55,848 nt of DNA. Origin: an uncultured Eubacteriales bacterium (GTDB taxonomy: Bacteria > Bacillota > Clostridia > Peptostreptococcales > Anaerovoracaceae). Positions 10,625-30,806 of the stretch are shown one piece after another. The translations under genes were made by a program, and so were the position numbers. The notes under the pieces are model-generated. The model searched no databases. It was not told the DNA's origin and worked only from the letters and a program-made list of their open reading frames with translations. The DNA lies in contig CADADV010000012.1 of NCBI GenBank assembly GCA_902786815.1, positions 1 through 55,848 on the forward strand, in the 5' to 3' direction. Within the stretch, counting starts at the first letter, position 1, and each line of letters starts with the position of its first letter.

Positions 10625-11998
10625 TTAATCAATCTTTGGCAATGTCTCAAAGTACTTCTGCAGTTCTTCGTCAGTCGGGATGTAGTCGTCCATGACGCCG
10701 TCGTGGAATTTCTCGTAGGCGACCATGTCGAAATAACCAGTTCCAGTGAGTCCGAAAACGATGGTCTTCTCTTCGCCTGTTTCGATGCACTTCTTGGCTT
10801 CGTCAAGCGCGACCTTGATAGCGTGGGAGCTTTCCGGAGCAGGCAGGATGCCTTCCACTCTGGCGAACTCTTCCGCGGCAGCGAAGACTTCCGTCTGCGG
10901 AACAGAAATGGCTTCCATGAGACCGTCGTCGTAGAGCTGTGAAAGCACCGGGCTCATGCCATGGTACCGCAGGCCGCCGGCGTGGTTGGCAGCAGGGATG
11001 AATCCGCTTCCGAGCGTGTACATCTTGGCCAGCGGGCATACCATGCCTGTGTCGCAGAAGTCATAGGCATATTTGCCTCTTGTGAAACTCGGGCAAGACT
11101 GCGGTTCGACCGCGACGATGCGGTAGTCTGCGTTGCCTTTGATCTTCTCACCCATGAACGGTGCAATGAGCCCGCCCAGGTTGGAACCGCCGCCGGCGCA
11201 GCCGATGATCATATCCGGAACGATGCCGTACTTATCGAGAGCAGCTTTTGTTTCCAGGCCGATGATGGACTGGTGGAGCAGGACCTGATTGAGCACGCTT
11301 CCCAGAACATATCTGTATCCCGGTGTGGATGTTGCCACTTCAACGGCTTCTGAAATAGCGCAGCCGAGGCTTCCGGTCGTACCGGGGTGATCCGCAAGGA
11401 TCTTCTTACCGATTTCTGTCGTTGTCGATGGGGAAGGTGTGACGTCAGCGCCGTAGGTTCTCATGACCTCTCTTCTGAACGGTTTCTGCTCATAGGATAC
11501 CTTGACCATGAAGACTTTGCAGTCCAGATCGAAGTAGGAGCAGGCCATGGAAAGGGCAGTGCCCCACTGGCCGGCACCGGTCTCTGTGGTCACGCCTTTG
11601 AGTCCTTGCTGCTTGGCGTAGTACGCCTGGGCGATGGCGGAGTTGAGCTTGTGGCTGCCGCTGGTGTTGTTGCCCTCGAACTTGTAGTAGATTTTGGCCG
11701 GGGTTCCCAGCTTTTCCTCCAGGCAGTATGCTCTGACGAGCGGTGACGGCCGGTACATCTTGTAGAAGTCCCGGATCTCCTGCGGGATCTCGATGAACGG
11801 ATCTTCGTTGTTCAGTTCCTGTTTGCAAAGCTCCTCGCAGAATACCGGAGCGAGATCTTCCAGCGTCATCGGCTGGTGCGTGCCCGGATGGATCAGCGGC
11901 GCAGGCTTGTTGATCATGTCCGCCCGCAGATTGTACCATGCCTGCGGCATCTCATTTTCTTCGAGGTATATCTTATATGGGATTTCTTTCGTAGTCAT
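10625..11998 (-). CDS. trpB: Tryptophan synthase beta chain, TrpB2 class (stand-alone)
   Basis: TrpB joins indole to serine with pyridoxal phosphate to make tryptophan. The 457-residue protein belongs to the longer TrpB2 class: it has an N-terminal extension (LRADMINKPAPLIHPGT) and the class motif RPSPLVRAYCLEEKLGTPAKIYYKFEGNNTSGSHK with the cofactor Lys117. GCAGGGSNLGG, the phosphate-binding loop, follows. TrpB2 proteins usually lack contacts for TrpA, and no trpA or other trp gene is in the window. An indole-salvage role has been proposed for the class. The gene has a 400-nt leader with a Trp-codon attenuator, which supports a true role in tryptophan supply. It could otherwise act on another serine-like substrate. 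Confidence 0.92.
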   Translation of the reverse strand: MTTKEIPYKIYLEENEMPQAWYNLRADMINKPAPLIHPGTHQPMTLEDLAPVFCEELCKQELNNEDPFIEIPQEIRDFYKMYRPSPLVRAYCLEEKLGTPAKIYYKFEGNNTSGSHKLNSAIAQAYYAKQQGLKGVTTETGAGQWGTALSMACSYFDLDCKVFMVKVSYEQKPFRREVMRTYGADVTPSPSTTTEIGKKILADHPGTTGSLGCAISEAVEVATSTPGYRYVLGSVLNQVLLHQSIIGLETKAALDKYGIVPDMIIGCAGGGSNLGGLIAPFMGEKIKGNADYRIVAVEPQSCPSFTRGKYAYDFCDTGMVCPLAKMYTLGSGFIPAANHAGGLRYHGMSPVLSQLYDDGLMEAISVPQTEVFAAAEEFARVEGILPAPESSHAIKVALDEAKKCIETGEEKTIVFGLTGTGYFDMVAYEKFHDGVMDDYIPTDEELQKYFETLPKID

Positions 11999-12150
11999 TG
12001 CGTTTGTTTCCTTTCTCTATTGCATCTGGTATTGCATCTGTTATTGATACAAAGCCTGACTTTGTTCTTTTCGTTAGTTTGTTGTAATAATATTTCTAAT
12101 TGTGTTGTTTGGTTTGGTGTTGTCGTCAGCTGTGGTTTTATCTTAATAAT

Positions 12151-12192
12151 TCATATTCCGGCGCGGCAGCGCCAATACTTGGTATATTTCAT
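12151..12192 (-). CDS. Second leader mini-ORF upstream of trpB2, MKYTKYWRCRAGI
   Basis: A 13-codon reading frame ending in TGA, with AGGAG (12201-12205, minus strand) 8 bases before its ATG, as good a ribosome site as any in the window. It lies just after the attenuator terminator and 152 bases before trpB2. Codon 7 is Trp, followed by Arg-Cys-Arg. The first leader peptide also has its Trp codons after Tyr and before Cys. The coding bases contain a GGCGC-TGCC-GCGCC hairpin. It may be a second regulatory peptide whose stalling controls read-through into trpB2. No family assignment is claimed. Confidence 0.55.
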   Translation of the reverse strand: MKYTKYWRCRAGI

Positions 12193-12210
12193 GATTTCTT
12201 CTCCTGTAAT

Positions 12211-12241
12211 AAAAACGCGGCTCCAGGTCTGCCTGTGCCGC
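12211..12241 (-). terminator. Attenuator terminator in the trpB2 leader
   Basis: On the minus strand GCGGC-A-CAGG-CAGA-CCTG-GA-GCCGC forms a 5+4 bp stem with a small internal loop and a 4-base loop, followed at once by GTTTTTATT. It sits about 70 bases after the Trp-Trp leader peptide and before the second mini-ORF. Termination here would stop transcription before trpB2. Region TGCTG (minus; plus 12288-12292) can pair either with CAGCA next to the Trp codons (plus 12328-12332) or with CGGCA of the terminator arm (plus 12236-12240). These alternatives are only 5 bp. Confidence 0.75.
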
Positions 12242-12313
12242 TTCGTGTTTCTGTGATTATCGTGTTTCTTCAAATGATTCAGATACTCAGCATTGCAAAC
12301 TGACCTTACAATC

Positions 12314-12373
12314 TTAGGTTGTAAAGCTGCTGCACCACCAATATCCGTTTGTGAAAACTCTCGTAATCATCAT
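12314..12373 (-). CDS. Trp leader peptide (trpL-like) of trpB2
   Basis: A 19-residue peptide, MMITRVFTNGYWWCSSFTT, with AGGAG (plus 12381-12385) exactly 7 bases before its ATG. It begins about 27 bases after the predicted transcription start. Codons 12 and 13 are tandem TGG. Two Trp codons in a 19-codon leader followed by an intrinsic terminator and a tryptophan gene is the textbook layout of ribosome-mediated attenuation. When Trp-tRNA is scarce the ribosome stalls at these codons and the terminator should be avoided. In Firmicutes, trp genes are more often controlled by T-box or TRAP, neither of which is visible here. Confidence 0.8.
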   Translation of the reverse strand: MMITRVFTNGYWWCSSFTT

Positions 12374-12406
12374 CTGAAAACTCCTGTAGTCTATTTTTAT
12401 GTGGTT

Positions 12407-12435
12407 ACTTTAGCACTCTAAAATGCTGTTGTCAA
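12407..12435 (-). promoter_or_regulatory. Promoter of the trpB2 leader transcript
   Basis: On the minus strand TTGACA (plus 12430-12435), a 17-base spacer and TAAAGT (plus 12407-12412) form a good promoter with a predicted start near 12400. The transcript would carry both leader ORFs and about 400 bases of leader before trpB2. Confidence 0.75.
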
Positions 12436-12523
12436 GAGAAAATTTTGACAAATTGGGAGTTGGCGGGGCGCGTGCACTGGCATTCGCCTCGTATTCGCCC
12501 CGTGCAACAAGGCAGCAAATGCC

Positions 12524-12802
12524 AAAGTACAAACCGCAAGTGCCGGACCCCTTGATGCTTCGTAGATCATTTGTACTTTCGTGACAGCCGTGTCGGCAAA
12601 GTACACAAGGCAGGTGCTGGAGCTGTTGAAACATCGTAGATCATTTGTACTTTTGAGTCGGTCGGGCCGAGAAAGTACAAAAGTCAGGTGACGGAACCGT
12701 TGAAACATCGTATGTGATTTGTACCTTCGAGTTGATAGCTTCAAGAAAGTACAAACGACAAACATTGAAACAGTTGACACTTCGCAAATCGTTTGTACTT
12801 TT
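12524..12802. repeat. Array 1: four 57-bp units at an exact 74-bp period, dyad ends
   Basis: Units start at 12524, 12598, 12672 and 12746. Each is 57 bp, opens with AAAGTACAAA (AAAGTACACA in unit 2) and closes with TTTGTACTTT (one mismatch in unit 3), and is followed by a spacer of 17 bp. Closing and opening ends of neighbouring units face each other as 38-bp inverted repeats (12570-12607, 12644-12681, 12718-12755). Interiors share GTTGAAACATCGTA-like sequence; the 17-bp loops differ but most hold their own 4-bp inverted repeat. Because 74 is not a multiple of 3, it does not encode a repeat protein. No known element was recognised. Confidence 0.85.
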
Positions 12803-12871
12803 GATTGAGAGAGTCGACATAAGGAAGCAGGAGTCATTCTTGAGTAGCAGTCGGTCCACATCTTCAAGCCT

Positions 12872-13222
12872 CAACCAACGGCCCAACGCAGCATCAAGGG
12901 TTGCGAACGTCAGCAGTTGGTTACGGGCGAGCTGTGGACTGTCCGCAACCAACGGCCCAACGCAGTATCAAGGGTTGCGAGGGTCAGCAGTTGGTTACGG
13001 GCGAACTGTGGAACGTCCGCAACCAACAGCCCAACGCAGTATCAAGGCTTGCGGGGGTCAGCAGTTGGTTACGGGCAAGCTGTGGACCGTCCGCAACCAA
13101 CGGTCCAATGCAGTATCAAGGGTTGCGGGGGTCAGCAGTTGGTTACGGGCAAACTGTGGACCGTCCGCAACCAACGGTCCAACGCAGTATCAAGGGTTGC
13201 GGGGGTCAACCGGTGGTTACAC
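12872..13222. repeat. Array 2: four and a half 74-bp tandem repeats
   Basis: Units start at 12872, 12946, 13020, 13094 and 13168 (partial). They are 90% or more alike by eye along their whole length, unlike array 1. Each unit holds GTTGGTTACGG, whose partner CCGCAACCAAC spans the start of the next unit. Ten of eleven bases pair, and the inverted repeat is 38 bp long, the same length as in array 1. A second possible pairing joins GGTTGCGG inside the unit with CCGCAACC. Open frames across the array arise because all three frames lack stops; protein coding is unlikely. Confidence 0.9.
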
Positions 13223-13446
13223 AGAAAGAGCTGATCCCAGCACGCCCGCAGACCTCGCTTGTCAAAGGAGGAAAACCGGTAATGATGTTTCCTGTCAGCT
13301 GGAATCTGCGTATGGCGGGCAGTGTATGGCGGGTGATATAATGCAAGGGAAAAGGGGAAACAAGGCAGGGAACGTGTTCGGCGCGATTCGCCCAAGAAAG
13401 CAATTCGCTCAAGAAAGCGATTCACTCAAGAGAGCAACGGATAACG

Positions 13447-14322
13447 ATGAACATGGAACAGACGAAATTCAGCAGATGGCCCGAAGCGCTTATCATTCTG
13501 CAGTCGATCATCTACGGCTTCGGCGACCCTATATCCAAGATCGCATTCGAGGTTACGCCGGTATATACGATGATGTCGGTGCGCTATTTGATTGCCTTCG
13601 TGATCTGCGTGGTCATCTTTCACAGGCGGATTCTCGATACGCTCCGAACAGTGCCTGTCAAAGCCTGGCTGATTCCGGGCGTGTGCATCGGCATGAGTTA
13701 TCTACTCAATAATGTCGCACTGTCCATGACGGATGCGACCTCTGTGGCGTTTCTCCGTTCCCTGGCAGTCGTCATGACACCGGCGCTGGCATTTCTCGCG
13801 TTCCGAACACGGTATTCATGGAAACTGATCTTCATACAGGTGATGGTGCTCCCGGGCACATACCTTCTGTGTGTCAGGGGAGGGCTTTCCGGATTCGGAG
13901 CAGGGGAGATGGTTGCCCTTGCCGCCGCGGCGCTGATGGCAGCTGCCCTTGTCTTCACAAAAAACTATCTGGACACGGTCGATCCCGCGAGCATGACGTC
14001 ACTGCAGGCAGGATGCTCCGCCGTGCTCGCACTGATCGGGTGCATGATATTTGAAGGAGGACTGCATCTGGAAACGACGACCGGCACAGCCTGGCTGATC
14101 ATACTGTACCTGGCCATCACATGCACCTTCCTCGGATATCTGATGCAAAATCTGGCGCTGACGAAGATTTCCGACCGTACTGTGGCGCTGCTGCAGAGCC
14201 TTTGCCCGGTCATGACAGCTGTGTTTGCATTGCTTTTGCTTGGGGAGACACTGTCGGCGGCAGGTATCGTAGGTGCGGTGATCATCGTTTGCTGCGTCGC
14301 CGCAGGGTCTGTGACGAGGTAG
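13447..14322 (+). CDS. EamA/DMT-family transporter
   Basis: A 291-residue integral membrane protein with about ten hydrophobic segments in two homologous halves, the mark of the drug/metabolite transporter (EamA) superfamily. The first half begins IILQSIIYGFGDPISKIAFEVTPVYTMMSVRYLIAF and the second ends ALLQSLCPVMTAVFALLLLGETLSAAGIVGAVII, which matches the family's typical last two helices. Substrates vary widely (amino acids, metabolites) and cannot be told from sequence. The ATG at 13447 is followed in frame by another ATG at 13453; neither has a strong ribosome site. It stands alone between the repeat arrays and thiN. Confidence 0.85.
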   Translation: MNMEQTKFSRWPEALIILQSIIYGFGDPISKIAFEVTPVYTMMSVRYLIAFVICVVIFHRRILDTLRTVPVKAWLIPGVCIGMSYLLNNVALSMTDATSVAFLRSLAVVMTPALAFLAFRTRYSWKLIFIQVMVLPGTYLLCVRGGLSGFGAGEMVALAAAALMAAALVFTKNYLDTVDPASMTSLQAGCSAVLALIGCMIFEGGLHLETTTGTAWLIILYLAITCTFLGYLMQNLALTKISDRTVALLQSLCPVMTAVFALLLLGETLSAAGIVGAVIIVCCVAAGSVTR

Positions 14323-14361
14323 ACAGCGGGTGTATAATGAGACTGGCAAGGAGGAAATATC

Positions 14362-14997
14362 ATGAAACGATGCGTCATCGTCGGCGGTGCCGGAATAAAT
14401 GAATACGACAGGGTGCGGGCTGCGCTGCTTCCGGACGATTTGTTCGTCTTCTGTGACTGCGGATTGAAGCACATGGATGCATTGGGTGTGAAGCCTGATT
14501 TGATCGTGGGGGATTTCGATTCCCATGAGAATCCGCGCATGGATGCGGAGACCATCGTGCTGCCGCGGGAAAAGGATGACACGGATACGGTTTTTGCGGC
14601 GAAAGAAATGATGAGGCGGGGCTTTGATGACTTCCTGCTCATCGGCGTCATCGGGGCAAGGCTCGATCATACGCTAGCCAACGTATCGATTCTTCTGATG
14701 CTCGATACGGCAGGAAAAAAGGCAAAAGCAATCGATGACTTCGGCGAGATTGAGATCGTGTCGGCAGCAGATGGCCGGCAGGGAAGGGCAACCATCGATG
14801 ATTCCTATCCCTATTTCTCGCTTTTGAACATCACCGGCGAGGCGGAAGGCATCACGATCCGAAACGCCAAGTTCCCCCTCGAAGATGGTAGAATCGACTG
14901 CGATTACCAGTACGCCGTCAGCAACGAAGTGCTGCCCGGTCAGACAGCAGAGGTTACGATCACAAAAGGCAGGGTGCTGCTGATCAAAATAGTATAG
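14362..14997 (+). CDS. thiN: Thiamine pyrophosphokinase
   Basis: ThiN phosphorylates thiamine to the active cofactor thiamine diphosphate. The 211-residue protein has the expected motifs: CDCGLKHMDALGVKPDLIVGDFDS near the start, REKDDTDTVFAAKEM for metal and ATP binding, and GARLDHTLANV. A C-terminal beta domain (YFSLLNITGEAEGITIRNAKFPLEDG) binds thiamine. TATAAT at 14333-14338 and AAGGAGG shortly before the ATG give it its own promoter and ribosome site. It is followed by a strong terminator, so it appears to be a single-gene unit. IorA in the same window needs this cofactor. Confidence 0.92.
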   Translation: MKRCVIVGGAGINEYDRVRAALLPDDLFVFCDCGLKHMDALGVKPDLIVGDFDSHENPRMDAETIVLPREKDDTDTVFAAKEMMRRGFDDFLLIGVIGARLDHTLANVSILLMLDTAGKKAKAIDDFGEIEIVSAADGRQGRATIDDSYPYFSLLNITGEAEGITIRNAKFPLEDGRIDCDYQYAVSNEVLPGQTAEVTITKGRVLLIKIV

Positions 14998-15012
14998 CGG
15001 GTAATCCCGCCT

Positions 15013-15040
15013 CCGGAGCGCGACTGCTCCGGTTTTTTTT
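15013..15040 (+). terminator. Intrinsic terminator after thiN
   Basis: CCGGAGC (15013-15019) pairs with GCTCCGG (15026-15032), with a 6-base loop, and eight T follow directly. Confidence 0.95.
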
Positions 15041-15056
15041 GTTATGCGGAGAAATA

Positions 15057-15065
15057 TGGTATAAT
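15057..15065 (+). promoter_or_regulatory. Extended -10 promoter of the large secreted protein
   Basis: TGGTATAAT is a perfect extended -10 element (TATAAT at 15060-15065). About 90 bases of AT-rich leader follow before the gene, with no terminator or ORF that suggests attenuation. Confidence 0.6.
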
Positions 15066-15158
15066 TAATAAACGTTAAGATAAATCGAACTATTCAAAAC
15101 AATCAAAGAGAACACATCATCTTTTTTGTTATTTGGATTTGATGGGAAGGAGGATATT

Positions 15159-18278: not shown

Positions 18279-18318
18279 GTCTTTGTGAACGTCCCTGCAA
18301 AAATGTACAAAAAATGTA

Positions 18319-18347
18319 TTGACACTATTCTGATAGTGTGTTAGTTT
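18319..18347 (+). promoter_or_regulatory. Promoter and palindromic operator before the aromatic leader peptide
   Basis: TTGACA (18319-18324) with a 17-base spacer leads to a weak -10 (TAGTTT, 18342-18347). ACACTAT (18322-18328) and ATAGTGT (18333-18339) form a perfect 7-bp inverted repeat with a 4-base centre inside the promoter, the position of a repressor site. The bound protein is unknown. Confidence 0.5.
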
Positions 18348-18400
18348 TGATACTGTATTAAAACGAAGTGTGCGTAAAACACGTGCAGGAGAATAAACCA

Positions 18401-18499
18401 ATGGCTAAGCTGATGAACATCGCAAATGCATACTACTACTTTTACTTCGGCTTTACTGGCGCAGACAGTAGGGTTAATTTGCGATGTGAGAGTGAGTAG
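18401..18499 (+). CDS. Aromatic (Tyr/Phe) leader peptide of the symporter-paaK operon
   Basis: A 32-residue reading frame with AGGAG (18387-18391) 9 bases before its ATG. Residues 11-18 read YYYFYFGF: four Tyr and three Phe codons among eight, in the middle of the peptide. An intrinsic terminator follows 28 bases after its stop. This is the layout of pheL-type ribosome-mediated attenuation, in which shortage of charged Tyr- or Phe-tRNA stalls the ribosome and lets transcription continue. An alternative structure is visible: GGTTAA (18472-18477) and TGTGA (18485-18489) can pair with TTAACC (18541-18546) and TCACA (18534-18538), which would break the terminator stem. Confidence 0.82.
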   Translation: MAKLMNIANAYYYFYFGFTGADSRVNLRCESE

Positions 18500-18527
18500 T
18501 TGATCAGCAATCAATAAGTTATCATTC

Positions 18528-18561
18528 AGAGCGTCACAGGTTAACCTGAGGCGCTCTTTTT
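18528..18561 (+). terminator. Attenuator terminator in the aromatic leader
   Basis: AGAGCGTC-A-CAGG-TTAA-CCTG-A-GGCGCTCT forms a near-perfect 12-bp stem with one A-A mismatch and one G-T pair, followed by five T. It lies between the Tyr/Phe leader peptide and the symporter gene, so it would decide expression of the operon. Confidence 0.9.
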
Positions 18562-18652
18562 CATGAGACGGCCGGGCGGCGGACAGGCAGGCTCGGCACA
18601 AACCAAACAAGTTTTTATTAGTACTTATTTTATACAAAGAGAGGAACATCTT

Positions 18653-20212
18653 ATGAACGCTACCACTATTCTGACCCTGTGCCTGATCATCATCTTTTTC
18701 GCAGTGATGATGACCATCGGTATCAGGACGAGAAAACACGCCAGAGACGTGGCAGGATTCGTTCTGGGTTCCAGGTCCGTAGGACCGTGGCTGAGTGCTT
18801 TTGCATTCGGCACATCATACTTTTCGGCAGTTATCTTCGTCGGATACGCCGGACAGTTCGGATGGAACTTCGGAATGGCGTCCACATGGATCGGCCTGGG
18901 AAACGCCTTTATCGGCTCACTCCTCGCATGGCTGATTCTGGGAAGACGTACAAGAATCATGACCAATCATCTGGACAGCCGTACGATGCCTGACTTCTTC
19001 GGCTCAAGATTCAGCTCCAAGAAGCTCAGAGTAACGGCATCCGTTATCACCTTCGTCTTTCTGATCCCGTATACAGCATCTCTGTACAACGGACTTTCGA
19101 GACTGTTCGCCATCGCCTTCCCGGGCATCGACTACGCGGCCTGCGTCGTGGTCATGGCAGCGCTCACATGCGCATACGTAGTTCTGGGCGGCTACATGGC
19201 AACAGCTACGAACGACTTCATCCAGGGCTGTATCATGCTGATCGGAATCGCTGCAGTCATCATCGCAGTGCTGCACGACAACGGAGGTCTGAACGCCGCA
19301 ATGGAGACGCTGGCTACGGGAGATAACGGAGGCTGGCAGTACGCCTCGTTCCTGGGAGCAGATCCTGTATCACTGTTCTTCGTCATCATGCTGACGTCGC
19401 TGGGAACATGGGGACTGCCGCAGATGGTCGGAAAGTTCTACGCCATCACAAACGAAGACGCGATCAAGAAGGGCACCGTAATATCCACTTTCTTCGCACT
19501 GGTCGTTGCAGGCGGATGTTACTTCCTCGGAGGATTCGGAAGGCTCTACAACATAGATGTCGAAACAGAAGGATTCGACGCGATCATCCCGAGTATGCTT
19601 TCCACACTTCCGGCGATCATCATCGGAATCATCATCGTGCTTGTGCTCTCCGCGTCCATGTCCACACTGTCGTCACTGGTTCTGACCAGCTCGTCGACGA
19701 TCACGCTGGACTTCATTTCGCCATTAAGCAAAAGCAAAATAAAGGAAACGACAAAGGTTGTCATCATGCGTGTGTTCATCGCCGTATTCGTCATCATCTC
19801 GGCGTACATCGCGATCCGGCAGGCGCATGCGAAGAGTCTCTTCATCGCACAGATGATGGGTATTTCATGGGGAGCTCTGGCAGGATCCTTCCTGGCTCCG
19901 TTCCTCTATGGACTGTACACGAAGCACGTTTCAAGAGTAGCGGTGGCATGCTGCTTCATCTGGGCTTCCTGCCTGGAGATCCTGCAGCTGTTCATCTCGC
20001 TGGGAATGCTGGATGTATCCGGCAGCGCACTGCTTAGCTTCGTATTCAGGAACTCGCTGTATTCAGGTGTGTTCGCCATGGTCGGCGGACTCGTGATCAT
20101 ACCGATCGTTACAGCGCTCACCAGAGGCGCGATTCCTGACAATACAGAAGAGATCTTCAGCTGCTACAAGTCACAGCGGACGGTTGGAATCACTGACAAC
20201 CTTGGTAAATAA
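18653..20212 (+). CDS. Sodium:solute symporter (SSS family), candidate aromatic acid importer
   Basis: A 519-residue membrane protein with about thirteen hydrophobic segments. Family motifs are visible: an N-terminal TRKHARDVAGFVLGSRSVGPWLSAFAFGTSYFSA like PutP/PanF, and VVLGGYMATATNDFIQG, the classic SSS signature. The ATG at 18653 follows GAGAGGAAC; the frame is open back to 18563, inside the terminator tail, but without a ribosome site. Transport substrates of the family include amino acids, sugars and carboxylates. The Tyr/Phe leader upstream and the arylacetate-CoA ligase 14 bases downstream suggest an aromatic amino acid or aryl acid, which is inference. Confidence 0.9.
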   Translation: MNATTILTLCLIIIFFAVMMTIGIRTRKHARDVAGFVLGSRSVGPWLSAFAFGTSYFSAVIFVGYAGQFGWNFGMASTWIGLGNAFIGSLLAWLILGRRTRIMTNHLDSRTMPDFFGSRFSSKKLRVTASVITFVFLIPYTASLYNGLSRLFAIAFPGIDYAACVVVMAALTCAYVVLGGYMATATNDFIQGCIMLIGIAAVIIAVLHDNGGLNAAMETLATGDNGGWQYASFLGADPVSLFFVIMLTSLGTWGLPQMVGKFYAITNEDAIKKGTVISTFFALVVAGGCYFLGGFGRLYNIDVETEGFDAIIPSMLSTLPAIIIGIIIVLVLSASMSTLSSLVLTSSSTITLDFISPLSKSKIKETTKVVIMRVFIAVFVIISAYIAIRQAHAKSLFIAQMMGISWGALAGSFLAPFLYGLYTKHVSRVAVACCFIWASCLEILQLFISLGMLDVSGSALLSFVFRNSLYSGVFAMVGGLVIIPIVTALTRGAIPDNTEEIFSCYKSQRTVGITDNLGK

Positions 20213-20226: not shown

Positions 20227-21534
20227 ATGACACACTATTATCAGAAGGACATCGAAACTGCATCGCGGGAAGAAATCCTGAAGATCCAGAATGAAAAGAT
20301 CCGCAAGCAGGTCAAGCATGTCTATGAACATGTACCATATTACAGAAACCTGATGGACGAAAAGGGCGTAAAGCCTGAGGACATCCAGAGCGTAGACGAC
20401 ATCAAAAAACTGCCGTTCCTTTCGAAGGCAGATCTGAGAGAGTCGTATCCATACGGACTTCTGGCGGTTCCATTAAATGACTGCGTCCGCATCCATTCCA
20501 CATCGGGAACCACAGGAAAGCGCGTCGTGGCGTTCTACACGCAGCACGACATCGATCTGTGGGAGGACTGCGTCGCCAGGGCAATCGTTGCCGCAGGCGG
20601 AACAGAGGAAGATGTGGTCCAGGTCTGCTACGGCTATGGGCTGTTCACCGGAGGTTCGGGGATCCACGGCGGATCCCACAAAGTGGGATGCCTGACCCTG
20701 CCGATGTCTTCCGGAAACACGGACCGTCAGATTCAGTTCATGATGGACCTGAATTCGACCATCATCTGCTGCACGCCGTCCTATGCGGCGTTCATCGGAG
20801 AGTCTCTCGCAGAGAGAGGCTACAAGCCGGACGACAACAAACTCAAAGCCGGCATTTTCGGTGCAGAACCATGGACGGAGGAGATGCGTCAAAGCATCGA
20901 GAAGAGCCTGGGCATCAAGGCCTATGATATCTACGGGCTCACAGAGACCAGCGGTCCGGGTGTCGCTTTTGAATGCGAAGCGCAGAACGGTATGCACATC
21001 AATGAAGACCATTTCTACGCGGAGATCATCGATCCGGATACAGGAGAGGTCCTTCCGGAGGGATCCAAAGGCGAGCTGGTGTTCACAGCGCTGGACAAAG
21101 AAGCATTCCCGCTTTTGCGGTACCGCACCCGCGATATATGCGTGCTCACCCGTGAGAAATGCTCCTGCGGACGCACCTTTGTGAAGATGTGCAAGCCGAT
21201 GGGAAGAAGCGACGACATGCTGATCATCCGCGGCGTCAACGTGTTCCCGAGCCAGATCGAGACCGTGCTCCTCAACGAAGGATACACGCCGAACTACCAG
21301 ATCGAGATCGGCCGCAAAAACAACACGGATACTCTGGACATTTATGTGGAAGCAGATCCATCGAGAATCTCCGACAAGGTCGCAGACATCCAGGATATGG
21401 AAGCCGGTCTGGCATCCGCTATGCGGACCATGCTCGGTATCGGTCCGAAGATCCACCTTGTGCCGCCTAAGACGATCACAAGAAGCGAAGGCAAAGCCGT
21501 CAGAGTCATAGATAACCGTAAACTGCACGATTAG
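20227..21534 (+). CDS. paaK: Phenylacetate-CoA ligase (arylacetate-CoA ligase)
   Basis: PaaK activates phenylacetate or related aryl acids to the CoA thioester with ATP. The 435-residue protein has the adenylate-forming motif HSTSGTTGKRVVAFY at ~residue 95, the A5-like YGLTETSGPG, the hinge region RYRTRDICVL, and the PaaK C-terminal lid ending RSEGKAVRVIDNRK. GGAG lies before the ATG. It is co-directional with the symporter (14-base gap) and the ACT-domain gene (12-base gap). In anaerobes with indolepyruvate oxidoreductase, such ligases can feed arylacetyl-CoA into reductive carboxylation, or recover CoA esters in fermentation; the leader peptide favours the former. Confidence 0.93.
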   Translation: MTHYYQKDIETASREEILKIQNEKIRKQVKHVYEHVPYYRNLMDEKGVKPEDIQSVDDIKKLPFLSKADLRESYPYGLLAVPLNDCVRIHSTSGTTGKRVVAFYTQHDIDLWEDCVARAIVAAGGTEEDVVQVCYGYGLFTGGSGIHGGSHKVGCLTLPMSSGNTDRQIQFMMDLNSTIICCTPSYAAFIGESLAERGYKPDDNKLKAGIFGAEPWTEEMRQSIEKSLGIKAYDIYGLTETSGPGVAFECEAQNGMHINEDHFYAEIIDPDTGEVLPEGSKGELVFTALDKEAFPLLRYRTRDICVLTREKCSCGRTFVKMCKPMGRSDDMLIIRGVNVFPSQIETVLLNEGYTPNYQIEIGRKNNTDTLDIYVEADPSRISDKVADIQDMEAGLASAMRTMLGIGPKIHLVPPKTITRSEGKAVRVIDNRKLHD

Positions 21535-21546: not shown

Positions 21547-21951
21547 ATGGCTATTACACAATTATCGATTTTTCTTGAGAATAAACCGGGACAGCTGCAT
21601 GAAGTCGTAAAACGCCTGTCAGAGGCTGGCGTCAACATCCGCGCCATGACCATTGCGGAGGTAAGAGACTTCGGCATCCTGAGGATCATCGTATCCGATG
21701 TAGAAAAAGCAAAGGCCGTCCTCGAGGATGATCACATCATCACAACGACAGAAGTCGTGTCAGCCATTATGGAAGACAAGGCCGGCGCGCTCTATGACAT
21801 CCTGCAGGCATTGGAATCAGCGAATGTCAACATCGAGTATATGTATGCATATACAGGCGAAGTCACGGGAAGCGCGAATGTCGTCTTCCGTGTCGACGAC
21901 ATCGAAGGAGCAGAAGCGAAGCTCAAAGAAGCTGGCGTAGAAGTCCTGTAA
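21547..21951 (+). CDS. Tandem ACT-domain protein, amino-acid sensor
   Basis: A 134-residue protein made of two ACT domains (residues ~3-65 and ~70-134). The first starts ITQLSIFLENKPGQLHEVVKRLSEAGVNIRAMTIAE and the second VVSAIMEDKAGALYDILQALESANVNIEYMYAY; both have the ligand-binding turn NKPGQL / DKAGAL. ACT domains bind amino acids and regulate partner enzymes. Stand-alone pairs of this kind are often found beside phenylacetate-CoA ligase and indolepyruvate oxidoreductase genes. Its likely role is feedback control of the ligase by an aromatic amino acid, which is inference. A strong GGGAGG site precedes the ATG. Confidence 0.88.
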   Translation: MAITQLSIFLENKPGQLHEVVKRLSEAGVNIRAMTIAEVRDFGILRIIVSDVEKAKAVLEDDHIITTTEVVSAIMEDKAGALYDILQALESANVNIEYMYAYTGEVTGSANVVFRVDDIEGAEAKLKEAGVEVL

Positions 21952-22293: not shown

Positions 22294-22299
22294 GTGGTT

Positions 22300-22308
22300 A
22301 TTGTAGCA
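22300..22308 (-). promoter_or_regulatory. Extended -10 promoter of hypA, leaderless layout
   Basis: On the minus strand TGCTACAAT is an extended -10 box followed by six bases (AACCAC) and the ATG of hypA. The predicted start site therefore falls on the ATG. There is no Shine-Dalgarno sequence. The spacing is identical to that before hypF. Confidence 0.6.
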
Positions 22309-22314
22309 CAGATG

Positions 22315-22323
22315 TGTTAAAAT
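22315..22323 (+). promoter_or_regulatory. Extended -10 promoter of the AAA ATPase gene
   Basis: TGTTAAAAT is an extended -10 element divergent from the hypA promoter and only 7 bases from it. The predicted start falls near an ATG at 22329 that opens a 6-codon frame ending at 22349, right where the AAAGGA ribosome site of the ATPase gene begins. Whether that mini-frame is translated is unknown. Confidence 0.5.
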
Positions 22324-22361
22324 ACGAAATGAAGATTTCAATGGACTGAAAGGATATACCG

Positions 22362-24038: not shown

Positions 24039-24072
24039 TGGAAACCCAGGCAGGGTAGGATGCTTTTGCATG

Positions 24073-24116
24073 AAACCCGTGGGACAGAAGGGTCTCACGG
24101 GTTTTGTTATTTTTTG
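24073..24116 (+). terminator. Intrinsic terminator after the AAA ATPase
   Basis: AAACCCGTG (24073-24081) pairs with CACGGGTTT (24096-24104); the inner GAC/GTC extends the stem. A T-rich stretch, TTGTTATTTTTT, follows. Confidence 0.9.
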
Positions 24117-24126
24117 TCAACTTTCA

Positions 24127-24155
24127 TTGACGAAAGCAGGGTTTAACTATATAAT
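24127..24155 (+). promoter_or_regulatory. Promoter of rny
   Basis: TTGACG (24127-24132), a 17-base spacer and TATAAT (24150-24155) make a near-consensus promoter with a start near 24162, leaving a 113-base leader before rny. Confidence 0.8.
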
Positions 24156-24274
24156 ATCTATGTATGCTTTTAACTTCTAATAATACCTATTTCAGTTAAA
24201 AATATAATCTGTCCGGCACTACGCCAGGCAGTGCATCTTGAAAACAGAATAACGGAAAGGAGGAATGATACCAC

Positions 24275-25819: not shown

Positions 25820-25877
25820 CAAGGGGCGCCGTGCGGCAGCGGGGAGCCGCCACATGGCAGCAATACTGAGAACACAG

Positions 25878-25909
25878 AAGTTGGCAGAAGGAACACCTTC
25901 TGTCAACTT
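25878..25909 (+). terminator. Hairpin after rny, probable weak terminator
   Basis: AAGTTGGCAGAAGG (25878-25891) and CCTTCTGTCAACTT (25896-25909) form a 14-bp stem with one G-T pair and an AACA loop, but only TTTAG follows. Some read-through into the cysteine desulfurase gene 16 bases on is likely. Confidence 0.7.
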
Positions 25910-25924
25910 TTAGAATAGGAACAG

Positions 25925-27160
25925 ATGATTTATTTAGACAACAGTGCAACGACAAGACAATATGATGAAGTAACGGCCGCGATGGTCCGTGCGATGCAGG
26001 AGGATTACGGCAATCCGTCATCCCTGTATCAGCTCGGCGTTGATGCGGAGAAGGCCGTCAAGGCGGCGCGACGGCATGTGCTGGAAGCAGCCGGATGGTT
26101 TGCTGCGTCCGACTGGGACGTGGTCTTCACATCCGGAGGCACGGAAGCAGACAACATGGCGATCTTCGGTGCGGCAAAGGCGCTGCGCAGGCAGGGAAAC
26201 CGCATCATCACAACGGCTGTAGAACATCCGGCAGTGCTTGAGTGTATGAAGCAGCTCGAGTCAGAAGGCTTCGAAGTGATCCGCATCGGTGTGGACGCCC
26301 AGTGCAATCCGGATATGAAGCAGCTGGAGGAAGCCATCGACGGGCACACGATCCTGGTCAGCATGATGCATGTGAACAATGAGGTCGGCACGGTCATGCC
26401 GGTCGGCAAAGTCAAAGAGATCATGCGCAGCAAAGGCGCCCCGGGACTGTTCCACTGCGACGCCGTGCAGAGCTTCGGCAAGATGCCCCTTCCGTCAGAG
26501 GCAGATCTGATTTCGGTCAGCGGCCACAAGATCCACGGACCGAAGGGCAGCGGCGCGCTCCTGATGAACAGAAACACGGCAGGCGCAAGCGCAGGCAGCG
26601 GCGCCTCAGGAAAAGGCGTCAGCATTCCGGCGTTCATCGTCGGCGGCGGACAGGAGTCCGGACGCCGGTCAGGCACAGAGAATGTGCCGGCGATCATCGG
26701 ATTAGGCTGCGCGGCAAAGATCGCCGCGGCGGACGGTGCAGACGATGCGGACGGCGGTTACCTGTCCATGGCGGAAATCGCAGGGATGAGACAGCAGCTG
26801 CTGGATGGCCTTTGCAGTAAGATCGAAGACATAGAAATCAACAGCCCGCCGGCGGCAGGATTGGCTCCGGGCCAGTGCTGCCCGAGCGTGCTGAATGTGA
26901 ATTTCAAGGACACCCGCGGGGAAGTGATCCTGCATACGCTGGAGCAGGAAGACATCTGCGTGTCCACGGGCTCGGCGTGCTCGTCCAACAAGAAAGGACA
27001 GAGCCATGTGCTGGAGGCTATGGGACAGTCTTCCAAGGACATCGAAGGCGCGATCCGGTTCAGCCTGGGACGGCTGAACAGTCCGGACGAAGTAGATGTC
27101 GTAGTCGATGCAGTTGCGTCCGCGGTCAAACGGTTCCGGCGGCTGGGCAGCTTCCGGTAG
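25925..27160 (+). CDS. Cysteine desulfurase, partner of ThiI
   Basis: This NifS/IscS-like enzyme takes sulfur from cysteine with pyridoxal phosphate. The 411-residue protein starts MIYLDNSATT as in the family, has the cofactor lysine in SGHKIHGPKGSGAL (Lys202) and the active cysteine in STGSACSS (Cys352) on a short loop. A Gly/Ala/Ser-rich insertion (NTAGASAGSGASGKG, ~217-231) and an acidic one near 270 are unusual. The next gene is thiI, 43 bases away, an arrangement seen in Bacillus where NifZ donates sulfur for 4-thiouridine in tRNA. That partnership is the most likely job here. Confidence 0.93.
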   Translation: MIYLDNSATTRQYDEVTAAMVRAMQEDYGNPSSLYQLGVDAEKAVKAARRHVLEAAGWFAASDWDVVFTSGGTEADNMAIFGAAKALRRQGNRIITTAVEHPAVLECMKQLESEGFEVIRIGVDAQCNPDMKQLEEAIDGHTILVSMMHVNNEVGTVMPVGKVKEIMRSKGAPGLFHCDAVQSFGKMPLPSEADLISVSGHKIHGPKGSGALLMNRNTAGASAGSGASGKGVSIPAFIVGGGQESGRRSGTENVPAIIGLGCAAKIAAADGADDADGGYLSMAEIAGMRQQLLDGLCSKIEDIEINSPPAAGLAPGQCCPSVLNVNFKDTRGEVILHTLEQEDICVSTGSACSSNKKGQSHVLEAMGQSSKDIEGAIRFSLGRLNSPDEVDVVVDAVASAVKRFRRLGSFR

Positions 27161-27203
27161 GCGCGGCAGGTTTCAAAGTCTGAATGATAACGAGGAAAGA
27201 ATT

Positions 27204-28442
27204 ATGGCACAAGACGAATACATTTTCATAGTCAGATGCGGCGAGGTTGCGCTGAAGGGGATGAATAAGCCCTACTTCGAGCGTATGCTGCTGGAGCGCA
27301 TCAAGAAGCTGCTGAAGAAATTCGACGGGGTCAGGGCGTACAGGCATGAGGGACTCATCTACGTGCGCGCGGAGAAGGTTCCCGGCGGCGAGGGTCAGGC
27401 TTCCGCAGATCCGGCAGCGATGAAGGCAAGAAAGGAAGCGATCATCCGCGAGATCGGCAAGGTGTTCGGCGTGGCGTCGATCAGCCCGGCCATGGAGTGC
27501 GAGAGCACCATGGAGGACATCGGACGCACAGCTGTGGAATACATGATGGAAGCCATCGAGGAGCGCGGCGTGAAGACCTTCAAGGTCGAGGCCAAGCGGG
27601 CGGACAAGAACTTCCCTGTGAAATCGCCGGACATCGCCCGGCAGATCGGAGCGGCGGTGCTCAAGGGATGCAAGGTCCTGCGGGTCGATGTGCACGATCC
27701 GGATGTGCGGCTGTTCGTAGATGTGCGGCACGACAAGTCCTATGTGTACCAGGACAAGATCCCGGGATTCGGCGGACTGCCCCTGGGGACGAACGGCAAG
27801 GGCATGACGCTGCTGAGCGGCGGCATCGACTCGCCGGTGTCGACATGGATGATGGCCAAGCGGGGCATGCTGATAGAAGCTGTACACTTCCACTCCTATC
27901 CGTACACGAGCCAGAGAGCCAGGGAAAAGGTAGAAGAACTGGCGAGCCTGGTGGCGACGTACTGCGGAAGGTTCAGAATGCACGTGATCAACCTGCTTCC
28001 GATCCAGGAGCAGATCGTGACCAACTGCCCGGAAGAGGAGACGACGATCCTGGTGCGGCGGTTCATGATGCGGATCGCAGAAGAACTTGCGAAGGCCAAC
28101 GGCTGCAATATGCTCATTACAGGAGAAAACCTCGGTCAGGTAGCGAGCCAGACGGCAGAGGCGCTGGTTGTCACAGATGCCAGCGTGCAGATGCCGGTCA
28201 TGCGTCCGCTCATCGGGATGGACAAGGTGGACATCATGGATCTGGCTCAGGAGATCGGGACCTACGAGAAATCCATCGAGCCGTATGAGGATTGCTGCAC
28301 GGTATTTCTGCCGAAGCATCCGAGCACGAAGCCGAGACTGGAGCGCATCCTGGAGAGCGAGGCGAAGCTGGACTGCGAGCAGCTCATCAAGGATGCCATC
28401 GCGTCAGAGGAGATCGTAAACATACTTCCGCATAGAGACTGA
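27204..28442 (+). CDS. thiI: tRNA 4-thiouridine synthase ThiI
   Basis: ThiI adenylates uridine 8 of tRNA and inserts sulfur; in some species it also serves thiazole synthesis. The ATG at 27204 follows GAGGAAAG and gives MAQDEYIFIVRCGEVALKGMNKPYFE, the family start. A THUMP domain spans ~60-170 and the PP-loop ATPase motif LLSGGIDSPVSTWMM follows near 205. The 412-residue protein ends without a rhodanese domain, as in many Firmicutes, so the sulfur must come directly from the adjacent desulfurase. Confidence 0.95.
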   Translation: MAQDEYIFIVRCGEVALKGMNKPYFERMLLERIKKLLKKFDGVRAYRHEGLIYVRAEKVPGGEGQASADPAAMKARKEAIIREIGKVFGVASISPAMECESTMEDIGRTAVEYMMEAIEERGVKTFKVEAKRADKNFPVKSPDIARQIGAAVLKGCKVLRVDVHDPDVRLFVDVRHDKSYVYQDKIPGFGGLPLGTNGKGMTLLSGGIDSPVSTWMMAKRGMLIEAVHFHSYPYTSQRAREKVEELASLVATYCGRFRMHVINLLPIQEQIVTNCPEEETTILVRRFMMRIAEELAKANGCNMLITGENLGQVASQTAEALVVTDASVQMPVMRPLIGMDKVDIMDLAQEIGTYEKSIEPYEDCCTVFLPKHPSTKPRLERILESEAKLDCEQLIKDAIASEEIVNILPHRD

Positions 28443-28489
28443 GAGGCAAAAGCCTCCGTGCGGGGATGAGGATATAAGGAGAAAAAACA

Positions 28490-30232
28490 ATGAAACGAAT
28501 CATGTTAGGCAATGAAGCATTCGCGAGAGGCGCCTGGGAAGCAGGCGTGAGAGTGGTCAGCTCATACCCGGGAACGCCGAGTACAGAGGTGACGGAAACT
28601 CTGGCGAAATGCGGCGACGAAGTGCATGTAGAATGGTCGCCGAATGAGAAGGTCGGCGTCGAGGTCGCAGTAGGCGCGTCCATAGGCGGCGCGAGAGCCC
28701 TTTCCTGCATGAAGCATGTAGGACTGAACGTCGCGGCGGACCCGTTCTTCACGGCAGCGTATAACGGCGTGACCGGAGGGCTGGTCGTGCTGGTGGCGGA
28801 CGACAACGGCTGTCATTCCAGCCAGAATGAACAGGACTCAAGATATCACGGAAGAGGCGCCGGCGTTCCGGTACTGGAACCGGCAGACCCGACCGAGTGC
28901 AAAGAGTTCATGAAGCTGGCCTTCGACATGAGTGAGAAATACGACACGGTGGTGCTCGTACGCTCCGGTACGAGGATCTCCCATTCCAGAGGGATCGTCG
29001 AAGAAGGCGAGCGCGTAGAGCGTGAGGTGATCCCGTATGAGAAGAACTTCCGCAAATATGTCGCCATGCCGGCGATGGCCCGCGTGAACCACGTGAAGCA
29101 GGAGCAGCGTCTGGCGCAGATCGCGGCGGATGCTCATGAGATCATGGCAGGGAGCATCCCGCTGAACAAAGAAGAGATGAATGATCCGGAAATCGGCATC
29201 GTGACCAGCGGTATCTGTTACCAGTACGTCAAGGAAGCGCTTCCGGACGCCAGCGTATTCAAACTGGGACTGGTCAACCCCTTGCCGCTGCAGGACATTG
29301 CAGCTTTTGCATCGAAGGTTGAGAAGTTATATGTCATCGAAGAAGGCAATCCGTTCCTGGAGGAACAGATCCGCGCAGCCGGCATTCCGGTGCACGGAGG
29401 CAAGGATATGTTCACGATCCAGGGCGAATACAGCGCCAACATGCTCCGGAAGGGATTCGGCGTCGCACTGCCTGATGCAGGAATAGACAATACAGATGCT
29501 CCCGGCAGACCGCCGCTTCTTTGCGCAGGCTGCCCGCACAGAGGTCTGTTCCATGTGCTCAGCAAACTGAAGACGACGGTCATGGGCGACATCGGCTGCT
29601 ACACGCTGGCTGCTCTGGCACCGACCAACGCCATCGATTCCTGCCTCTGCATGGGCGGATCGATCGGTATGGAGCACGGATTCGAGAAAGCGACAGGCAA
29701 CAGCAAGAACCTCGTTGCAGTCCTCGGAGATTCCACGTTCATCCATTCAGGCATCACCGGCCTGGTGAACATGGTCTACAATGAAGCCAAAGGAACAGTC
29801 ATCATTCTGGACAACCGCATCACGGGTATGACAGGACACCAGCAGAACCCGGCTTCCGGAAAGAACGCCAAAGGCGAGATCGCACCGGCGCTGGATATCG
29901 CCACGCTGTGCAGAGCCATCGGCGTGAAGAACGTCTTTGAAATCGATCCGTTCGAGATCAAGGAACTGGAGGAACTGATCAAGGCGGAGACGGAGCGGGA
30001 TGAGCTGTCCGTCATCATCACCAAGCGGCCATGCGTGATGATCGTCAAGCAGACTGAGCCGCCGCAGATGATCACAGATGCATGCAAGAACTGCCGCCAG
30101 TGCATGAAGATCGGCTGTCCTGCTATCGAGATCAAGGACGGAAGACCGTACATCATAAAAGAAAGCTGCATCGGATGCGGGCTTTGCGCGAAGGTGTGTC
30201 CGTTTGATGCAATCAAGAAGGAGGACAAATAA
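28490..30232 (+). CDS. iorA: Indolepyruvate:ferredoxin oxidoreductase, alpha subunit
   Basis: IorA with IorB interconverts aryl pyruvates and arylacetyl-CoA plus CO2 using ferredoxin. The 580-residue protein opens with the pyrimidine-binding domain (GNEAFARGAWEAGVRVVSSYPGTPSTEVTE) and the thiamine-diphosphate domain (GDIGCYTLAALAPTNAIDSCLCMGGSIGMEHG, with GDSTFIHSGI). It ends with an eight-cysteine 2[4Fe-4S] ferredoxin domain (CKNCRQCMKIGCP...CIGCGLCAKVCP). iorB begins 1 base after its stop. The enzyme is usually catabolic in amino-acid fermenters but is known to run as a reductive carboxylase in methanogens. No leader peptide is visible before it. Confidence 0.96.
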   Translation: MKRIMLGNEAFARGAWEAGVRVVSSYPGTPSTEVTETLAKCGDEVHVEWSPNEKVGVEVAVGASIGGARALSCMKHVGLNVAADPFFTAAYNGVTGGLVVLVADDNGCHSSQNEQDSRYHGRGAGVPVLEPADPTECKEFMKLAFDMSEKYDTVVLVRSGTRISHSRGIVEEGERVEREVIPYEKNFRKYVAMPAMARVNHVKQEQRLAQIAADAHEIMAGSIPLNKEEMNDPEIGIVTSGICYQYVKEALPDASVFKLGLVNPLPLQDIAAFASKVEKLYVIEEGNPFLEEQIRAAGIPVHGGKDMFTIQGEYSANMLRKGFGVALPDAGIDNTDAPGRPPLLCAGCPHRGLFHVLSKLKTTVMGDIGCYTLAALAPTNAIDSCLCMGGSIGMEHGFEKATGNSKNLVAVLGDSTFIHSGITGLVNMVYNEAKGTVIILDNRITGMTGHQQNPASGKNAKGEIAPALDIATLCRAIGVKNVFEIDPFEIKELEELIKAETERDELSVIITKRPCVMIVKQTEPPQMITDACKNCRQCMKIGCPAIEIKDGRPYIIKESCIGCGLCAKVCPFDAIKKEDK

Positions 30233-30233
30233 G

Positions 30234-30806
30234 ATGGAAAAGAATATTCTTATCGTAGGAGTCGGCGGTCAGGGAACACTGCTGGCAAGTGTCCTTCTGG
30301 GAAATCTGGCATTGATGAAAAACTATGACGTCAAGCTCTCCGAGGTCCACGGCATGAGCCAGCGGGGCGGCGACGTTGTGACACACGTCAAGATCAGCGA
30401 CACTACAGTCGCTTCACCGCTCATCGAAAAGGGCGAGGCGGATATCATCATCGCATTCGAGAAACTGGAAGCCTACCGGTGGCTGCCGTATCTGAAGAAG
30501 GGCGGCGCCATGTATGTGAATGAGCAGCAGATCATGCCGATGCCCGTCGTTCTGGGACAGGTGGACTATCCGGCGGACATCGATGAAACTCTTGCAAAGG
30601 CAGCGCAGACGCTCGTGAAATTCGATGCGCTGGCTTTAGCGGAGGAGGCCGGCAGCAGCAAGGCGGTCAACGTCGTCCTGCTCGGCGCCGCATCCAACGC
30701 GCTGCCGTTCACGGAAGAGGAATGGATGGATGTCATCGAGAAATACGTCAAGCCGAAGTTCATTGCACTGAACAAGGATGCTTTTGCAAAAGGACAGGCA
30801 GTATAA
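30234..30806 (+). CDS. iorB: Indolepyruvate:ferredoxin oxidoreductase, beta subunit
   Basis: IorB is the gamma-like subunit of the oxidoreductase, needed with IorA for catalysis. The 190-residue protein begins NILIVGVGGQGTLLASVLLGNLAL and has the family motif LSEVHGMSQRGGDVVTHVKIS. The ATG at 30234 is preceded by GGAGGACAAAT; an open frame back to 30204 lies in iorA and is not used. Confidence 0.96.
   Translation: MEKNILIVGVGGQGTLLASVLLGNLALMKNYDVKLSEVHGMSQRGGDVVTHVKISDTTVASPLIEKGEADIIIAFEKLEAYRWLPYLKKGGAMYVNEQQIMPMPVVLGQVDYPADIDETLAKAAQTLVKFDALALAEEAGSSKAVNVVLLGAASNALPFTEEEWMDVIEKYVKPKFIALNKDAFAKGQAV

Follow-up and report, generated by a model that had tools for sequence, protein, structure and literature searches.

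The window analyzed here is a single contig of 55,848 nucleotides (G000:C12:1-55848) from the 2.2-Mb draft genome (45 contigs, 91.9% complete) of an uncultured Eubacteriales bacterium of the family Anaerovoracaceae. It encodes TrpB2, an importer-paaK-ACT operon predicted to act on arylacetates and the oxidoreductase IorAB, the first two of which are preceded by leader peptides with runs of aromatic residues and by intrinsic terminators (Table 1). The trpB2 product scores above the cut-off of TIGR01415, remains under that of the classical trpB model TIGR00263 (156.2 versus 392.45 bits), and lacks a trpA partner in its genome, a combination that identifies it as a TrpB2/TrpB-like pyridoxal phosphate (PLP) enzyme, predicted to make Trp from indole and serine or phosphoserine. 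The solved chains closest to it are 6hul (named beta chain 1) and 4qys and 6hte (beta chain 2), and matches with at least 66% identity are found in most genomes of the genus. The ligase combines the PF14535 C-terminal domain with close relationships to the solved PaaK chains 2y27, 2y4o, and 4r1l (E values of 1e-121 or better; 1.1e-129 for 2y27), which identifies it as an AMP-forming ligase of the PaaK type. IorA and IorB both exceed the cut-offs of their models, marking them as an indolepyruvate:ferredoxin oxidoreductase (IOR). Family membership provides the roles suggested below for PaaK, IorAB, the ACT protein, and the importer, the last of which may transport an arylacetate or an aromatic amino acid.

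Table 1. Positions of the genes and regulatory features in the window and the evidence for each
Feature	Position	Strand	Evidence
trpB2, TrpB-like PLP enzyme	10625..11998	-	NF009057, 680.7 bits (cut-off 366); TIGR01415, 579.6 bits (518.85)
Second mini-open reading frame with one Trp codon, MKYTKYWRCRAGI, in the gap between terminator and trpB2	12151..12192	-	Like peptide in 6/7 subclade members and in L167
Intrinsic terminator, trpB2 attenuator	12211..12241	-	Hairpin of -16.4 kcal/mol and T-run; same element in 7/7 subclade members
Trp leader peptide, MMITRVFTNGYWWCSSFTT	12314..12373	-	YWW run in 7/7 subclade members whose trpB2 locus was available
Phe/Tyr leader peptide, MAKLMNIANAYYYFYFGFTGADSRVNLRCESE	18401..18499	+	Conserved in G007, G013, G020, G006, and G014; diverged YYYFYF in G015
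1:2 hairpin by the control codons	18450..18474	+	18450-18458 pairs with 18466-18474
Antiterminator 2:3	18471..18547	+	18471-18487 pairs with 18531-18547
Intrinsic terminator 3:4, importer-paaK-ACT attenuator	18528..18561	+	Hairpin of -18.6 kcal/mol and T-run
SSS-family importer	about 18653..20212	+	PF00474, 166.6 bits (cut-off 22.8); reaches none of the listed NCBIfam cut-offs
PaaK-like AMP-forming arylacetate-CoA ligase	20227..21534	+	TIGR02155, 534.4 bits; PF14535, 97.0 bits (cut-off 25)
Paired ACT-domain protein	21547..21951	+	PF19571, 82.2 bits (cut-off 23.5)
IorA, indolepyruvate:ferredoxin oxidoreductase alpha subunit	28490..30232	+	TIGR03336, 673.3 bits (cut-off 650.9)
IorB, beta subunit	30234..30806	+	NF005325, 252.1 bits (cut-off 230)

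A sequence-only reading of this DNA had proposed that two attenuators, one before trpB2 and one before the importer-paaK-ACT genes, sense aromatic tRNAs, and leader peptides with terminators are indeed present at both sites. We propose that these are two ribosome-mediated transcription attenuators gating the supply of aromatic amino acids by salvage, an interpretation to which we assign a probability of roughly 0.75. Our confidence derives mainly from the evidence on paaK, which is left untouched by the weaker case for an antiterminator at trpB2.

The leader upstream of the importer displays the full anatomy of a trp/phe-type attenuator. A Shine-Dalgarno sequence (CAGGAGAATAAACCA) precedes the peptide, whose YYYFYF run supplies the tandem control codons, and the leader is accompanied by the mutually exclusive 1:2, 2:3, and 3:4 structures. 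In an alignment of 14 such leaders (A1), 95.2% of 126 cells are paired in the 1:2 hairpin, with 2 pairs changed on both sides, and 91.0% of 223 cells are paired in the antiterminator, with 11 cells changed on both sides. Sliding one arm against the other lowers these values to 25 to 58% and 31 to 41%, respectively, a comparison biased toward the unslid version because both structures were taken from the window and from duplex predictions. For both structures, percent paired and covariation lie above all 500 column shuffles; doubly changed pairs are at least as numerous in 26/500 (1:2) and 28/500 (2:3) shuffles. All 14 Phe/Tyr-type leaders can form a duplex between their own tail and the terminator's 5' arm, one that no more than 9 of 200 shuffled tails equal in any of them; in the window, 3/200 pair as well as the 2:3 antiterminator. 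RNA from 18441 to 18561 folds as the 1:2 hairpin plus terminator, and RNA from 18471 to 18565, with the 5' part removed, folds as the antiterminator. The leader RNA as such folds unusually well (z of -4.18; 0/200 shuffles as good), and a peptide with 7 of 9 residues being Phe, Tyr, or Trp arose in none of 2,000 dinucleotide shuffles of the 450 nucleotides upstream of the importer. The importer-paaK-ACT leader hence has a mutually exclusive 1:2 hairpin and antiterminator that are kept by compensatory change.

Among the seven nearest species as judged by PaaK (G007, G035, G020, G006, G014, G019, and G013; 91 to 94% identity), the leader is present in all five with sequence upstream of the importer; the remaining two, G035 and G019, stop at contig edges. 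No such leader was detected in front of the G025 importer, which lies behind trpB2. A joint test for leader and terminator was positive at 14 of the 93 paaK-operon starts of relatives with at least 300 nucleotides upstream (window excluded; 13 if L191 is set aside) versus 2 of the 541 starts of other genes, and one of these two hits is itself a trpB2 leader. The match at L191, a locus that carries a T-box, is probably due to chance and was rejected.

Before trpB2, a Shine-Dalgarno sequence (ACAGGAG) precedes the open reading frame of the YWW leader, whose tandem codons are again those of the trp/phe-type attenuators, and a terminator follows. Because a WW peptide also appears upstream of trpB2 in 9 of 2,000 dinucleotide shuffles, the case for this leader rests on its conservation across the subclade; leader plus terminator was not seen at any of the 23 remaining trpB2 loci, four of these having less than 300 nucleotides upstream. 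The antiterminator is only weakly supported: two of the seven leaders, those of the window and G019, clearly exceed shuffles (5/200 shuffled tails as good). In the gap between terminator and trpB2 lies a mini-open reading frame that follows a TK.WR pattern, often ends in RAGI, and has codons overlapping a GGCGC/GCGCC inverted repeat; a similar peptide occurs in L167 (2455-2499), a genome of another family. It might possibly represent a second Trp-sensing step. Between trpB2 and an EamA gene (window 12520-13220), two sets of direct repeats, around ATCATTTGTACTTT and GGTCAGCAGTTGGTTACGGGC, are discernible by eye.

The relatives provide a second line of evidence, in the form of an unrelated sensor on the same gene. 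Our set of named paaK relatives, mostly rumen and gut metagenome-assembled genomes (MAGs), comprises the best 80 of 595 confirmed. The Rfam scan covered the window, 20 of 30 trpB2 loci, 19 paaK/ior loci, and 16 chosen loci (two of which overlap others), and the remaining named loci were scanned for sensors by motif. No match to the T-box model RF00230 was found anywhere in the window; matches occur only upstream of orthologues in relatives. Upstream of paaK, a T-box exceeds the Rfam gathering score at 15 loci, namely in G040, G055, G044, and G056, which span three other families of the same order, and in 11 named genomes; an ACT gene was detected at 14 of these loci. All 15 combine a UUC specifier loop with a UGGU antiterminator, and the T-box of trpB2 in G040 has a UGG specifier with UGGC. 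UGGU suits A73 of tRNA-Phe, and UGGC suits G73 of tRNA-Trp. A Ser or Val specificity of the paaK T-boxes was rejected, as UUC is common to both layouts of the loop and UGGU mismatches a tRNA with G73, though a doubt of one base in the register persists; the discriminator bases (tRNA-Ser, G73) and the position of the codon in the specifier loop are general background on this class.

Leader peptides on paaK likewise extend beyond the immediate relatives. Phe-rich leaders lie immediately 5' of paaK in L139, L140, L144, L148, and L163, from Lachnospiraceae and Oscillospiraceae, and in G002; Phe is the only aromatic residue in those of G002 and L148, and the others also contain Tyr or Trp. In L167, a mixed leader (FYWFWFSF) stands upstream of a trpB2-paaK-ACT operon. 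The placement of one gene under two unrelated devices responding to aromatic tRNAs is predicted for supply but not for breakdown. The earlier claim of supply is hence supported by the aromatic leaders and Phe T-boxes on paaK together with the Trp T-box on trpB2, and we consider this function well supported.

It is unlikely, if worth weighing, that the operon serves mainly for uptake of Phe and Tyr by the SSS protein, with PaaK and the ACT protein in a secondary role such as the recycling of arylacetates leaked by IOR. Gating by tRNA is common for transporters, the families to which the SSS protein belongs leave its substrate unassigned, and the L167 genome has another SSS gene behind a T-box-like leader with no other query genes in the examined flank. 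Yet in six leader loci and all 15 T-box loci the sensor sits directly 5' of paaK with no importer in between, and in L209 the T-box lies between an SSS gene and paaK, which indicates control of the ligase itself. The T-box-like leader of the SSS gene in the L167 genome (L235) combines UGGU with a loop that could be read as either UAC (Tyr) or UUA (Leu), depending on the register. Still less probable is a reading in which indole-3-acetate is an additional or the main substrate of the ligase and IOR and gives indolepyruvate and then Trp, so that one enzyme pair would salvage all three aromatic acids. The leaders of G006 (YYWFYF), L163, and L167 do contain a Trp codon, and IORs are reported to accept phenylpyruvate, hydroxyphenylpyruvate, and indolepyruvate (PMC13285125), but the aromatic runs of the remaining leaders consist of Phe and Tyr only, the T-boxes read Phe, and trpB2 already offers a route to Trp. 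A catabolic, Stickland-type operon fermenting arylacetates or amino acids, with a tnaC-like leader that antiterminates on excess amino acid, is very improbable and was rejected: IorAB is oxidative in some anaerobes (PMC5817080, PMC13285125) and this genome has three IorA-like genes, one below the TIGR03336 cut-off, but the same gene bears Phe T-boxes, devices that turn expression on in response to uncharged tRNA, the leader has tandem codons and terminator/antiterminator anatomy, and the de novo aro operon bears a leader of the same kind.

The links between the genes, claimed earlier for PaaK/ACT with IorAB and with trpB2, are evident from adjacency in relatives. Of 78 named loci, 74 have an ACT gene close to paaK, and in 34 iorAB and paaK are consecutive. 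Within the genus, 17 loci have adjacent iorB and paaK, and iorA, the ACT gene, and a sortase-like gene each occur in 16 of them, some loci being truncated by contig ends; in G018 and G023, paaK and iorAB are divergent neighbors. As for trpB2, it is a same-strand neighbor of importer-paaK-ACT in G025, L151, and L165. In the window, iorA begins 6.5 kb past the ACT gene, with five open reading frames between (one on the opposite strand). The genes between ACT and iorA or behind iorB include rny (RNase Y), above its cut-off, nifS and a sortase gene, below theirs, and, by reading, a probable thiI. An rny-nifS-thiI array precedes iorAB-paaK in four of the 17 genus loci, and iorAB has the same surroundings in the window and G007, where paaK-ACT is missing from this site. 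Two more IorA-like genes occur elsewhere in this genome (G000:C5:192420-196190 and G000:C21:9157-10977, the latter below the TIGR03336 cut-off); that on C5 is in a row with iorB and a PaaK-like gene (43% identity), and no aromatic leader was found there. At 8 of 12 importer loci (L228, L229, L231-L233, and L236-L238), the SSS gene lies closely 3' of a long open reading frame with an acyl-CoA-ligase-like end (PRN.TGKIEKP.LRK).

A PaaK tree was computed from a 71-row sample that includes 28 random ungrouped rows and 10 chosen ones, with one paralogue from this genome entered twice. The window PaaK is separated from the iorAB-linked PaaKs found in its own genus (98/96) and falls within a 51-row set together with those of Lachnospiraceae and Oscillospiraceae MAGs; G002 is nested in the group with Phe leaders (100/98); many inner forks are weak, and there is a long-branch warning at the root. 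The simplest reading of this pattern is that paaK and its leader moved together by horizontal transfer.

Salvage as a necessity, implied by the earlier expectation that the de novo routes would be lost, fares differently for the different amino acids. For Trp, indole-3-glycerol phosphate synthase was not found in any of the 37 genus genomes (drafts, 71 to 99% complete), and TrpA was not found in this genome; elsewhere in the genus, G030 has a partial TrpA match of 49 residues above the cut-off and two genomes have weaker ones. These absences support a loss of the Trp route in this genome and genus. For Phe and Tyr, such a loss in this genome is rejected, as contig C4 carries pheA, aroF, tyrA, aroB, aroA, aroC, and a chorismate mutase-aroE-aroK fusion consecutively, which tells against strict need. 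Of their products, AroF, AroB, and AroC score above NCBIfam cut-offs and PheA, TyrA, and AroC above those of Pfam; PheA (214.3/219), TyrA, AroA (241.5/287.25), AroE, and AroK are below the NCBIfam cut-offs. This bacterium can probably still make Phe and Tyr de novo. The sequence-only reading had named a complete de novo pathway under independent control as a finding that would speak against it: genes matching such a pathway are there, but their control is not independent in kind, since a Phe/Tyr leader (MIRRELTTAYFGFTFQGFYYSAGDLC) and a hairpin with a T-run can be read upstream of pheA. The aro operon of G015 likewise has a Phe/Tyr leader. In this genome, the predicted arylacetate salvage is a second supply beside the aro operon, under like control.

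The picture of rebuilding by need fits the seven nearest species better. None of them has a match to pheA, and none has a tyrA match above the cut-off (five have weak partial ones); aroC is kept in six of the seven, and paaK-ACT persists in them. At the aro loci examined, those of six of the species, the gene set is contracted, with only aroF-aroC-(chorismate mutase-aroE-aroK) found there, the contig of G035 being short, and no peptide with an aromatic run lies immediately 5' of aroF on its strand. In G006, G007, G013, G014, G020, and G028 (L218-L222 and L227), aroC shares an open reading frame of 848 to 894 codons with chorismate mutase, aroE, and aroK, probably a fusion. In these seven species, pheA and tyrA have apparently been lost and paaK-ACT retained. 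More broadly, pheA is present in 17 of 37 genus genomes. It also occurs in 41 of 50 named genomes that have a close paaK, the 50 being drawn from 78 distinct ones, so that most of these would not strictly depend on salvage. Of the 17 with a leader or T-box, L139, L163, L167, and L198 lack it, as do L151 and L165, where trpB2 is beside paaK, and L158, L177, and L207, all of them genomes of unstated completeness. The arylacetate route is thus a second source as a rule and probably the sole source in some lineages.

Several further observations weigh against our proposal. The draft state of the genus genomes is one. At the importer leader, the number of further pair types is matched by 275/500 (1:2) and 425/500 (2:3) shuffles, and the terminator count on A1 is mixed, with 73.7% paired and slides of +1 and +2 exceeding its covariation score, because two hairpin registers were aligned together; each single leader has a strong terminator. 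At trpB2, 22 to 101 of 200 shuffled tails do as well as the antiterminator duplex in the other five leaders, and the fold of the leader RNA is unremarkable (z of -1.58; 12/200 shuffles equal). The ligase is below the TIGR02155 cut-off (534.4 versus 646.3 bits), for which reason we call it PaaK-like, and an additional acyl-CoA-ligase-like gene end lies before eight importers, four of them in SSS-iorA-iorB operons, a hint that a broader range of substrates may be handled there. The iorAB genes of the window form a separate operon, and no aromatic leader was found before iorA. No recognized sensor is present at 30 of 57 operons beginning with paaK, the importer, or trpB2, or at 35 of 36 beginning with iorA or iorB (at least 300 nucleotides upstream), counts in which genes beyond the query set could intervene, so that some true starts may be unscanned; the sole sensor near iorAB among the iorA-first operons of relatives is a T-box between iorB and paaK in L213. 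Finally, IOR also works oxidatively in other organisms (PMC13285125, PMC5817080).

On the basis of these observations and of the behavior of the attenuator class, we propose the following mechanism. A shortage of charged tRNA-Tyr or tRNA-Phe would stall the ribosome in the YYYFYF run, where it would cover 18450-18458 and allow segment 2 to pair with segment 3, and the genes for the importer, PaaK, and the ACT protein would be transcribed. When charged tRNA is plentiful, the ribosome would reach the stop codon and cover segment 2, and the terminator would form. The importer would bring in arylacetates, PaaK would form the coenzyme A (CoA) thioester, IorAB would reductively carboxylate the arylacetyl-CoA to an arylpyruvate, and a transaminase would yield Phe or Tyr, with TrpB2 joining scavenged indole to serine or phosphoserine. 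In the window species, this arylacetate route would operate alongside the shikimate-prephenate operon with its own Phe/Tyr leader. We further offer the tentative suggestion, which we hold at somewhat less than even odds, that paaK-ACT is a mobile tRNA-gated cassette, with or without the importer, iorAB, and trpB2, that travels among rumen and gut Bacillota with its own sensor, be it a Phe, Phe/Tyr, or Phe/Tyr/Trp leader or a Phe T-box. It might have replaced the prephenate branch in the sister species, whose Phe, Tyr, and Trp would come from phenylacetate, hydroxyphenylacetate, and indole of neighbors or the host diet, the window species being caught with both routes.

Apart from these systems, the window has an Rfam match to pemK RNA (47.1 bits) at 53056-53133 on the minus strand, some kilobases from an integrase-like open reading frame and a tRNA-Ala gene; this region is possibly an integrated element.

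In gut and rumen bacteria, IorAB with an arylacetate-CoA ligase may work either in the production of phenylacetate or in its consumption for Phe, and the sensors of the ligase gene, Phe/Tyr attenuators and Phe T-boxes, lead us to argue for consumption here. If this is true, three compounds commonly regarded as waste, phenylacetate, p-hydroxyphenylacetate, and indole, would also be nutrients exchanged by microbes, and the sister species would depend on them. The underlying chemistry is already known. Allison reportedly observed in 1965 that rumen bacteria form Phe from phenylacetic acid, and anabolic IORs of methanogens are said to have been described by Tersteegen in 1997 and Porat in 2004 (cited in PMC13285125 and PMC4902934, respectively). 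A discussion of rumen cultures that cites the 1965 work states that Phe can be obtained from phenylacetate (PMC7356843), and our proposal, if correct, would provide a genetic basis for that synthesis. As for the gating of paaK by tRNA, no description of it, or of a T-box with a phenylacetate-CoA ligase, was found in the open-licence literature searched, and the main text of a T-box survey mentions neither paaK nor phenylacetate (PMC2494555).

As in the assimilation of arylacetates by methanogens and rumen bacteria, IorAB would here use a source of arylacetyl-CoA to form arylpyruvates for protein; the system in Bacillota differs in its AMP-forming PaaK with an ACT protein, its control by leaders or T-boxes, and its pairing with trpB2. 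The same enzyme pair is seen in another phylum, in Bacteroides, where an IOR beside an AMP-forming arylacetate-CoA ligase is described as perhaps biosynthetic, and an IOR of B. thetaiotaomicron is implicated in the conversion of Phe to phenylacetate (PMC13285125); there the direction is argued from the energetics of the ligase, whereas here it is argued from regulation. TrpB2 enzymes are cited as dependent on O-phosphoserine (PMC11917138), and in Thermococcus kodakarensis TrpB2 is reported to salvage indole (PMC11085991). Free indole would likewise be used in the window species, with the differences that the genus yielded no indole-3-glycerol phosphate synthase, the genome no trpA, and that control is by a leader peptide. 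In Dehalococcoides, a T-box lies upstream of a trpB-like gene (PMC2494555), which is similarly stand-alone and under control by Trp-tRNA, the window using a leader peptide instead.

Trp/phe-type ribosome-mediated attenuators are a well-known class, and the leaders described here share with them the tandem control codons and the 1:2, 2:3, and 3:4 structures. The exchange of a leader peptide for a T-box on the same gene has a counterpart in hisS of Firmicutes (PMC2965389). Where the present system differs from both is in what it controls, namely the gene for an arylacetate ligase and a stand-alone trpB2.

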